Source: Actinomycetes bacterium (GTDB lineage Bacteria > Planctomycetota > Phycisphaerae > JAACET01). From it: a stretch of DNA of 64,000 bases. Below, one piece after another: positions 21,263 to 25,187 of the stretch (position 1 is the first letter of the stretch; each line of letters begins with the position of its first letter). The notes beneath the pieces were generated by a model. That model saw only the letters and a program-made list of their open reading frames with translations. It had not been told where the DNA came from and made no database searches. Where the stretch lies: positions 125,170 through 189,169 of the forward strand of contig JAUXAG010000001.1 of assembly GCA_030614915.1 (NCBI GenBank), given 5' to 3'. The translations under genes were made by a program, and so were the position numbers.

Positions 21263-23737
21263 ATGAAAAACGGTGATCTGAGCCGCAAGAGCGTTACTGC
21301 CGGCATTGGGAGATTAATCAGTCGCCATCCTGGGAAGCTAGTGGTTTTGTTTTTGGCAATCACTGTATTGATGGCCCTTCCTCTGAAGAATATTAACACC
21401 TCTACAAGGATATCCGACTATTTGCCGGGTTGTGAGTATCTGGACACAGACGACAAACTGCGCGAGCAGTTTAATGCCAGCAAATCCGTGATAAGCGTTC
21501 TGACAGCGGACTCGGGCAACATAATGACCCGGCAGGGCCTGATCGTCTTGCGAGAAATAGAGCAGGCCATATTAGCCTCCGAGGAAGTGAGTGAGTATCT
21601 AATAAGCTATGACAGGGCCGTGGAGACGATGGGGGGCACATTGGAGCGGGCAATTATCAAGAAATCCAGGGGGAGATACACGCTAGACAACCTTCCAGAA
21701 AAGTATATGAAGAATGCTATTACCAAGGTCCTGGCCCTTGAGAGCTCCGCAAGCCTGGTTTCGAAGGGGCAAAGCGATCAGAGGGATTCGGCGGTCATAG
21801 TCGTTCACTTCAACCACAACAAAATAGAAAGGGACAACGAGGACGCCGAACTGGCTTTGCTGAAAGTAATGCAGAACAAAGTTCCGGACGGCTATAGCTT
21901 AACCTCATTGGCGGCTAAGAACTACCATTTGGAGCAGGATGCCAAAGAGGGTATCCGCACGACCTTGCCCATATCGCTGACTCTGCTGCTGTTGGTGCTA
22001 ATGATAACTCTGAGGAATCTCATAGATTTTGTTGCCTCTGTCGTCGGGCTGGCCGTAACCATGATAATTTCCTTTGGGGCCTTTTGCCTTCTTGGGCTTA
22101 GATTCAGTCAGATGACGTTCTTTGCCCCCATTGTTATTATGGTTCTGGCCATCGACTATGCCATACACCTGCTTCTTCGGCATAGAGAATACAGAAGAAA
22201 AGGCCTGGAAGTTTCCCAGGCTATGTCCCAGGGGATAAAGTTCACGGGTGTATCGGTATTATTTTCTGCCTTGACCACAATGTTCGGATTCGGGTCGAAC
22301 GCCCTGTCGAAGATACCGGCGGTGGCATCGTTCGGGCTGTTTCTGGCCTTGGGAATAGGTGTGTCCTTTCTGGTGATGACATTTTTCGTCCCCTCGCTTA
22401 GGCTTTTATGTTCTTATTTTACGGCATTGCTGGCGGGCAAGAGCGGCCAAGGACAATCCTCGAGCAGATTGATCGCAAACAAATCAGGATTAGAAGCAGA
22501 TAACCGAGAGCCGTCCAGTCATGGCTGGGTCAAGTTTGTTTTATATCCGCTTTTTTTGGGCATTGTGGGGGTAGCATTGGTCCTTTCCGGGAAGGGATTG
22601 TTGCTAGCCAGACACATAAAGAGAGACATGAGTGCCGAGCAGATATATGCCAAGGACTCGCCGGTGTTGCAGACCCTGGATGCCCTTCATGAAAAATTCC
22701 CGAGCATTGGGCTACATAGAGCCTATATCCTGATCGAAGCGGACATATACGAACCGGAGGTGCTGGCTGCTGTGGATAAGTCGATTGCGAACATGGCCGA
22801 TGATGAACATGTGGCCAAGATAGGTGAAGCAGCAAAAGTCCGCTCGATAATTCCTTACCTGAAGGAAATAGTCAAGCCAGACAAGAAGCGTCGCCCCAGA
22901 GGTCGCAGGGTTCGCATCAAAGTCAGGGACGCCAACGGCGACCGCCTGCCGGACACGAAGGAAGGGTTGGCCAAGGTTCTCGACGAGTTGTACACAAATG
23001 GGATAGACAAGCTGGTAAGTGCAGGGAGTGTAAAGTCGCTACTGAGCAGGAACGGCGCCAATAGAGCATACGATATGATCCTGCTTATAGTTGACACACG
23101 TAGTACGCAGGGAACGGGTGCGGGAGAATTGCGGGCAGAGTTCCGGGATAATTTTGAACTATTACGAGCTATAGATGGAGTCAGGATCAGTTACGCCGGC
23201 TTTATCTTCGAGCGCCACGCAATCATAACAGAGATGACCAACGGGATGATCAAATCTACCTTTGTTTCTATATTGTTGTGCACTGTTATTGTGATTCTAC
23301 TATTTCGTTCCCTGCGGCTCGGCCTGATAGCAGCTATACCGATTATCCTGATAGCGGGGTGGATATTGGGGATTATGTATGTGCTTGGCTTTACCCTCAA
23401 TGTAATAACGGCTACGGTTACGGCCATGAGCATTGGGGTCGGTATAGACTATTCGATCCACCTGGTGGAAAGGTATCGCCAGGAGAGAGAGACAGGAAAG
23501 GCAATAGGCAAGGCCATGAGCAAGTGCATTCGCACCACCGGGCCTTCGCTGCTAGGCGCTGGGATAACGACATTCTCCGGATTTTTTGTCATGAGCTACA
23601 GCCAAATCAATATGATCCGGTCCTTTGGGATTCTGGCATCGCTGGTGATAGTATTGGCTCTGGCGGGCTCGCTAATAGTGCTGCCAGTGATGCTGATGAG
23701 CTCAGAAAAAGCGGCAGAATGGCTGAAAAGAAAGTAG
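21263..23737 (+). CDS. RND superfamily exporter (MMPL type)
   Basis: The 824-residue inner-membrane protein has the duplicated architecture of MMPL-type RND permeases: an N-terminal helix (LVVLFLAITVLMAL), a periplasmic domain, five clustered helices, then the same again. The two helix-4-like segments match each other (IVIMVLAIDYAIHLLLRHRE and the second-half counterpart GVGIDYSIHLVERYRQ), with GAGITTFSGFFVMSYSQ in the second half. Such proteins move lipids, hopanoids or other hydrophobic molecules using the proton gradient. There is no adjacent adaptor or outer-membrane factor. Its substrate is unknown. The start ATG has a good AGGAGAG site. Confidence 0.92.
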   Translation: MKNGDLSRKSVTAGIGRLISRHPGKLVVLFLAITVLMALPLKNINTSTRISDYLPGCEYLDTDDKLREQFNASKSVISVLTADSGNIMTRQGLIVLREIEQAILASEEVSEYLISYDRAVETMGGTLERAIIKKSRGRYTLDNLPEKYMKNAITKVLALESSASLVSKGQSDQRDSAVIVVHFNHNKIERDNEDAELALLKVMQNKVPDGYSLTSLAAKNYHLEQDAKEGIRTTLPISLTLLLLVLMITLRNLIDFVASVVGLAVTMIISFGAFCLLGLRFSQMTFFAPIVIMVLAIDYAIHLLLRHREYRRKGLEVSQAMSQGIKFTGVSVLFSALTTMFGFGSNALSKIPAVASFGLFLALGIGVSFLVMTFFVPSLRLLCSYFTALLAGKSGQGQSSSRLIANKSGLEADNREPSSHGWVKFVLYPLFLGIVGVALVLSGKGLLLARHIKRDMSAEQIYAKDSPVLQTLDALHEKFPSIGLHRAYILIEADIYEPEVLAAVDKSIANMADDEHVAKIGEAAKVRSIIPYLKEIVKPDKKRRPRGRRVRIKVRDANGDRLPDTKEGLAKVLDELYTNGIDKLVSAGSVKSLLSRNGANRAYDMILLIVDTRSTQGTGAGELRAEFRDNFELLRAIDGVRISYAGFIFERHAIITEMTNGMIKSTFVSILLCTVIVILLFRSLRLGLIAAIPIILIAGWILGIMYVLGFTLNVITATVTAMSIGVGIDYSIHLVERYRQERETGKAIGKAMSKCIRTTGPSLLGAGITTFSGFFVMSYSQINMIRSFGILASLVIVLALAGSLIVLPVMLMSSEKAAEWLKRK

Positions 23738-24189
23738 CCTGATCAGCGACGATTAGAATTACCGGTCGGAAAGGACGGCAATAGAGTGTCTGGAATCAAG
23801 TTAGGAAATTTCAGCTGGTCACAGATGAACAGGTACGGTTGTTGATAAAGCTGATCAATAAAAAAACAGGATCGCGACGGAGAATTTTAAACGGACTTGC
23901 CCAGCCATTCCAGCTCGCAGCCGCCCTCTAGAGTCTCACTGGGCCCTCGACTCAGCAAGGGCGTTTCCAGTACTTGCCGGCCACCCTATCCGCCAGCAGC
24001 ACTTGGTCTGAATATTCGCAGGATTCGTCCCCGATTCTTCCCAACCCTCAGACGAGGCCCCAGAGCCAGACAAGCAATTTTATATTTTTTTCTCTTGCAA
24101 TATGGCCCAAAGTCTTTATCTATATCTCCTGGGAACTGGTCTAGTGGTTGTTTCAATGTTGTTTATCTTGCAGAAAGGAATCACGAGTT
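23738..24189. other. Leader region of the histone-fold gene
   Basis: About 450 bases with no convincing frame. The last 130 bases are AT-rich with a possible -35 TTGCAA near 24092, but no confident -10 at standard spacing. Confidence 0.4.
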
Positions 24190-24384
24190 ATGGCTAAAAG
24201 AGCAGCGAAGAAGGAAGTCCTGGTTGTAGCCAGCAAGGTCAAGGCTTATATCCGCGGCAAAAAGATGATGTGCTCAGCGGATGCCATCGCCGCCTTGTCC
24301 GACAAGGTCCGTTGCATCATCGATTGCGGCATCGCCCGCACAAAAGCCAACAAGCGAAGCACCGTAAAGCCGCAAGACCTGTAA
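24190..24384 (+). CDS. Bacterial histone-fold protein
   Basis: From the ATG at 24190 (AAAGGA 11 bases upstream) the gene encodes 64 residues. After a basic start (AKRAAKKE) the sequence follows a histone fold: helix 1 LVVASKVKAYIRGKKMMC, loop, long helix 2 SADAIAALSDKVRCIIDCGIARTKANKR, then STVKPQDL, which mirrors the archaeal histone end GRKTVKAEDV. Bacterial single-fold histones with the phrases SKVK, RAKANGRKT and QDL are known from several phyla. The protein is expected to form dimers that coat or bend DNA. Three cysteines are unusual in such a small protein. It is monocistronic, with a hairpin just downstream. A DUF1931-type relative is the alternative name. Confidence 0.85.
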   Translation: MAKRAAKKEVLVVASKVKAYIRGKKMMCSADAIAALSDKVRCIIDCGIARTKANKRSTVKPQDL

Positions 24385-24409
24385 ACCTGCTATCTACACC
24401 TCCAAAGGT

Positions 24410-24452
24410 AGAGCGGACATAACTCACCCTCGGGGTTTGTTATGTCTGCTCT
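24410..24452 (+). terminator. Terminator hairpin after the histone-fold gene
   Basis: AGAGCGGACATAAC pairs with GTTATGTCTGCTCT over 14 positions with one mismatch, 25 bases after the stop. The T-run that follows is weak. It ends the monocistronic unit. Confidence 0.7.
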
Positions 24453-24560
24453 GTCTGCGCCCAAACGCTCGCCGCCATAACAGGCCCGGTCTGGGCGTTT
24501 CTCAATCCGGCCAAGGCCCTTCGACCGCTAAGGCCTGATCACAAATACAAAAAAAGTCAA

Positions 24561-25187
24561 TTAATCTATTGAATTGTTCAGCAATGCTCGGCGAAGTTTG
24601 CCCAGCGGGAACAAACGCCACTGGCCCGCCAGCCCCGACGTGGAGCCCGCCAGGGAGATATTCTCGGCCGGAATTTGGCAGCGCTGCTGAAGGCTCCGCA
24701 GCAAGGCCTCCAATTGTGATAACTGCACACGACCGGGCGGCCCTTGGCCAAAGTCACCTATCAGGCAAACTTTGATTATCGAACCTGCGGAAGTTGCCCG
24801 GCGGCTCAGCCCAGCCCAGCCGGCATTCTCTTGTTGGGTCCACTGCTGGCTGACTTGAATCCTCCCATCCGCCCCCCCGCGCCCATTGGTAATCACGAAG
24901 TGGTAAGCTAAGGCCCCCAGAGCTTTTTGTCTGCAAGACTCCGCCAGGCTCTGGGCATTGCCACTTGGGGTCCCGGATTGATGTATCTCTATGTATTGCC
25001 AGCGTGAGCCGTCCACCGGCACTCGGGTCTCGAATACCTGTCCAATGGGGTTGAACGCCGCCGCCAGACTGAAAGCCGTTACATCCATCAGAGGCGCCGG
25101 CTGTAAGAGTCTCAGGATAATCGCCCCCGCGGTCACCGACAGCACCAAAAAGCCCAGAACCTTGGTCATCCTTTCCCGTGACGACAT
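24561..25187 (-). CDS. PGRP/amidase_2-like protein lacking a zinc ligand
   Basis: A 208-residue protein with an N-terminal membrane anchor or signal (VLGFLVLSVTAGAIILRLL) and an N-acetylmuramoyl-L-alanine amidase/PGRP fold: WQYIEIHQSGTPSGNA with His69, ALAYHFVITNGRG with His95, and the strand VCLIGDFGQGP. In active members a third ligand appears near the end as GHRDV...CPG. Here that stretch reads AGSTSGLAGQWRLFP, with neither His nor Cys. So it may bind peptidoglycan without cleaving it, or use another ligand. The context offers no partner. Confidence 0.75.
   Translation of the reverse strand: MSSRERMTKVLGFLVLSVTAGAIILRLLQPAPLMDVTAFSLAAAFNPIGQVFETRVPVDGSRWQYIEIHQSGTPSGNAQSLAESCRQKALGALAYHFVITNGRGGADGRIQVSQQWTQQENAGWAGLSRRATSAGSIIKVCLIGDFGQGPPGRVQLSQLEALLRSLQQRCQIPAENISLAGSTSGLAGQWRLFPLGKLRRALLNNSID

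Follow-up and report, generated by a model that had tools for sequence, protein, structure and literature searches.

Face-to-face (FtF) histones are defined by a predicted tetramer formed via R48 and N52 in the numbering of the FtF HMM (R49 and N53 in HLp of Leptospira perolatii), combined with an RxTxxxxD motif (PMC11390915; PMC12701072), whereas the histones termed bacterial dimers lack R48 and N52; both classes have been reported from Planctomycetota (PMC11390915), histones of which had already been mentioned (PMC10627809; PMC11390915). Among the described proteins HLp (PDB: 9QT0, 9QT1, 9QT2) forms a tetramer, around which about 60 bp of DNA are wrapped through described DNA contacts, with loop 1 of one chain pairing with loop 2 of the partner chain (PMC12701072). 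HBb (Bd0055) of Bdellovibrio bacteriovorus is a dimer that bends DNA, the archaeal HTkC of Thermococcus kodakarensis (PDB: 9F2C) is an FtF histone forming a tetramer torus, and the archaeal nucleosomal histones of the HMfB type assemble into hypernucleosomes. We here compare with these a small histone-like protein encoded in a 64-kb stretch of bacterial DNA (hereinafter the window, meaning this stretch at its full length).

The gene and its flanking elements

The sequence-only reading had described a 64-residue bacterial protein with a single histone fold and three cysteines. The ORF translates exactly as described, with the C-terminus TVKPQDL and cysteines at positions 28, 42, and 46 (Table 1). 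Its start codon is conserved in two congeneric genomes coding for proteins 92% and 84% identical to it, and the Shine-Dalgarno motif AAAGGA about 10 nt ahead of the ATG, a ribosome site noted earlier, is identical in two further congeneric species. Given these congeneric proteins with their conserved start and Shine-Dalgarno region, along with more than 130 relatives, this is a real gene. The gene differs from that of the nearest sister species in 11 codons, and 6 of these differences are silent. A longer, TTG-started ORF (78 aa) finds no backing in the conservation.

Table 1. Features of the histone locus, in window coordinates.
Feature	Position	Strand	Basis
Gene for an alpha3 histone, most likely of FtF type, 64 aa	24190..24384 (stop codon included)	+	Translation, homology, predicted fold
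Shine-Dalgarno region (AGAAAGGA)	24174..24181	+	Conserved in both congeneric species
Conserved upstream block (TATTTTTTTCTCTTGCAATA ... TTTATCTATAT)	about 24077..24127	+	Alignment of three species of the genus
3' hairpin, 18-bp outer stem, no T-run	24406..24456	+	Similar hairpin in both sister species
MMPL-family transporter gene	21263..23737	+	
amidase_2 gene	24561..25187	-	

The gene is solitary, with the MMPL-family transporter gene on one side and the oppositely oriented amidase_2 gene on the other, and, unlike in the case of HLp, it is not adjoined by SMC or MAP genes. The conserved block upstream of it is a probable promoter region, judging from the alignment; a scan of this block for the sigma-70 consensus returned no match. 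The downstream hairpin that had been pointed out does exist and has comparable counterparts in both sisters. The fold of 100 nt containing it has an energy of -34.5 kcal/mol, an intrinsic-terminator scan at the hairpin was negative, and an Rfam search with the region gave no match. As it lacks a T-run, we do not call it an intrinsic terminator; it is likely an mRNA 3' end or a transcript-stability element.

Homology, histone class, and proposed mechanism

A phmmer search against solved structures recovered HLp (9qt0) as the best match (E=2.7e-15, gapless across residues 5-63), followed by the Bdellovibrio histone (E=1.6e-4 and 2.1e-4) and archaeal HTkC (E=0.15); with a profile built from 44 sequences the corresponding values were 1.7e-27 for HLp, 4.7e-12 for HBb, and 7.2e-08 for HTkC. 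Structure prediction, proposed earlier for the dimer and run by us on the monomer with AlphaFold2 (mean pLDDT 88.6), yielded two helices (residues 2-23 and 29-53) followed by a turn of 3 residues (61-63). In a Foldseek search with this model HLp came out on top (E=4.9e-4, probability 1.00); HBb, HTkC, and chains of eukaryotic histones, H4 among them, ranked below it in this order. Both sequence and predicted fold support the original call of a bacterial protein with a single histone fold. The predicted monomer superposes only loosely on HLp (TM about 0.55, rmsd 8 A), which could be expected of a single chain of an intertwined dimer that normally folds against its partner.

None of the 89 distinct aligned relatives departs from R50, N54, R56, T58, and D63, or from S15, K16, and K18 of alpha1, the equivalents of DNA-contacting residues of HLp. 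R50 and N54 correspond to R48 and N52 of the FtF HMM; R56, T58, and D63 supply the RxTxxxxD motif with its RD clamp; and the predicted monomer displays a truncated alpha3 and a shortened alpha2. The likeness to HLp, a proven FtF histone of nearly equal length, thus extends to its tetramer residues (R49, N53, R55), its R55-D62 clamp, its DNA-contact positions S14, K15, and K17, and its truncated alpha3. The differences from HLp comprise T27 to C28, Y40 to R41, A41 to C42, D45 to C46, and T56 to S57. The window histone would have the FtF class and the tetramer torus in common with HTkC, but the latter is a distant, archaeal protein with little N-terminal tail.

The invariance of the FtF-defining residues in the 89 relatives argues that the protein is most likely an FtF histone and not a nucleosomal one of the HMfB type. 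Its comparison with archaeal histones in the sequence-only reading was apt for the RxTxxxxD end, which HMfB-type histones share along with the fold; however, these have a longer alpha2 and a full-length alpha3 helix of about 10 residues, whereas the window protein ends one residue past D63, and its alpha3 is reduced to the short turn. HMfB-type histones were absent from its significant sequence matches, and the closest kin, where that reading had looked to HMfB and known bacterial histones alike, are bacterial FtF proteins typified by HLp, with HBb next. As the second-best homolog in the PDB, HBb raises the alternative of an alpha3 bacterial dimer that bends DNA without forming a tetramer, and Planctomycetota are among the reported sources of such dimers (PMC11390915). 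HBb indeed resembles the window histone in its histone fold, short alpha2, truncated alpha3, and RxTxxxxD motif, but it has S and D in place of R50 and N54, the very residues that bacterial dimers lack and that are invariant in this family, and its scores fall far behind those of HLp; we accordingly regard a dimer of this kind as quite improbable. The points that sit less easily with the FtF assignment are the loose superposition on HLp, the lack of a Pfam match, the replacement of Y41 by R, and the change of the HLp contact T27 to C28. Pfam and NCBIfam searches with the single histone sequence gave nothing above cut-off, as would befit a spurious ORF or an unrelated basic helical protein; nevertheless, other members of the family weakly match the DUF1931 and histone models, and the strong conservation across many genomes together with the significant matches to solved histones already refutes such an origin, to which we assign next to no likelihood.

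The protein is, in our estimate, very probably a single-copy chromosomal FtF alpha3 histone, a tetramer of which would compact the chromosome by wrapping DNA alongside one HU. Nonspecific wrapping by a tetramer is the most likely mechanism in light of the invariant tetramer and DNA-contact residues and the wrapping of about 60 bp by the HLp tetramer. By analogy with HLp, two histone-fold dimers would join via R50, N54, and R56 (R49, N53, and R55 of HLp) into a ring-shaped tetramer, in which a set of basic and loop residues (S15, K16, K18, R22, position 28, S57, and T58) would touch the DNA backbone without sequence specificity; such a tetramer may wrap a similar length of DNA. We likewise infer the abundance of the protein and its in vivo role, which would be chromosome compaction. 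Histone and HU occur together in the window genome, which has one HU gene (G000:C35:213510-213773; L092, L097), whereas Leptospira is reported to be without HU.

The cysteines and Arg41

Of the 89 distinct sequences, 75 have T at position 28, 8 have C, and 6 have S; cysteine occupies position 42 in 30 and position 46 in 10. The three cysteines, earlier called unusual, are so only as an exact trio, which occurs in the window species alone among these sequences, whereas each position on its own recurs as cysteine. Cys28, aligned with the loop-1 DNA contact T27 of HLp, is common to the genus, but the sister with 92% identity, while retaining it, has G42 and A46; no cysteine pair is consistently kept, and 40 of the 89 sequences are devoid of cysteine in the aligned region. 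Relatives may carry charged residues at positions 42 and 46, and both sites therefore look surface-exposed. The idea of disulfides in a dimer finds no support in these comparisons: with Cys42 and Cys46 absent from the sister, both positions apparently exposed, and Cys28 in a loop 1 that would face the cysteine-free loop 2 of the partner, a structural disulfide is unlikely. The cysteines are a variable detail and not a special feature.

The same observations bear on a redox-responsive histone, in which Cys28 at the DNA contact and Cys42 and Cys46 in helix 2 would form a disulfide or bind a metal and thereby switch DNA binding. Three cysteines within 64 residues and the joint recurrence of Cys42 and Cys46 in some relatives (e.g., L007, L012, L041, L070) are in line with it; yet the bacterial cytoplasm is normally reducing, and this adds to the absence of both helix-2 cysteines from the nearest sister, the lack of a constant pair, the exposed positions, and the loop pairing to render such a switch highly unlikely.

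Arg41 is stranger than the cysteines: the column is Tyr in 85 of the 89 sequences and in HLp, and its replacement by Arg is a single-species change. Together with the two new cysteines (G42C and A46C), Y41R, found in the window species only, forms a local burst of substitutions within helix 2 (window 24310-24327). There is a very slender chance that these lineage-specific changes together with Cys28 could give a thiol- or metal-sensitive FtF histone, the wrapping by which responds to redox.

Distribution, host, and gene neighborhood

Relatives of the window histone are encoded on at least 133 genome stretches, the best 80 of which are nearly all from Planctomycetota. The Phycisphaerae and other planctomycete FtF histones (PMC11390915) belong to the same family (about 47-92% identity) with the same invariant residues, although many have longer Lys/Ala-rich N-terminal tails where that of the window histone is short. 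Because FtF histones of Planctomycetota have been described before, the window protein, though genuine, is an ordinary representative of a family already published and extends the known bacterial FtF histones by one well-supported sequence. These are widespread in the class: of 247 sampled genomes 60, or about a quarter, have a homolog, and 3 of the 60 have two; the window genome, of 2.56 Mb in 36 contigs, encodes a single one. The sharing of a chromosome by histone and HU could be studied in this class, for which the window gene itself is not special.

The window genome encodes Omp85 and the window an OmpA-family protein, and the histone locus of a same-class genome (G034) is of Phycisphaerae type, its DNA being 76-77% identical to Planctomycetota/Phycisphaerae records. 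On these grounds the Actinomycetes or Actinomycetota titles of two congeneric MAGs (L002, L003), the lineage of which appears to be Phycisphaerae, are probably wrong, the class is probably Phycisphaerae (Planctomycetota), and we rejected the Actinomycetota host that these titles suggest. The SBP_bac_10 marker gave a sub-threshold match only. In a histone tree built on 57 columns only, with few resolved forks, the window genus and a Sedimentisphaerales sequence form a group (96/83) that falls within the Planctomycetota set.

In most of the fetched relatives the histone gene lies upstream of a block of glycogen genes: a glycogen-synthase-type glycosyltransferase follows it in about 70 of 91 loci, GH57 alpha-amylase and glycogen debranching enzyme genes lie downstream in about 60 of 91, and two divergent small genes, one of them DUF2007-like, precede it in about 70 of 91. 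This conserved neighborhood is seen, for example, in L004, L005, L016, L063, and about 65 further loci, and we know of no description of it. The arrangement was not found in the genus of the window; in the window genome glycosyltransferase and GH57 genes lie together on another contig without a histone, adjoining genes that, as named from their sequences, are mreB-like and flagellar flhF/flhG-like. A MAG labeled as Nitrospira (L044:291-461) carries a planctomycete-like FtF histone with 74% identity over the matched part, which is either a transfer or a mis-binned contig.
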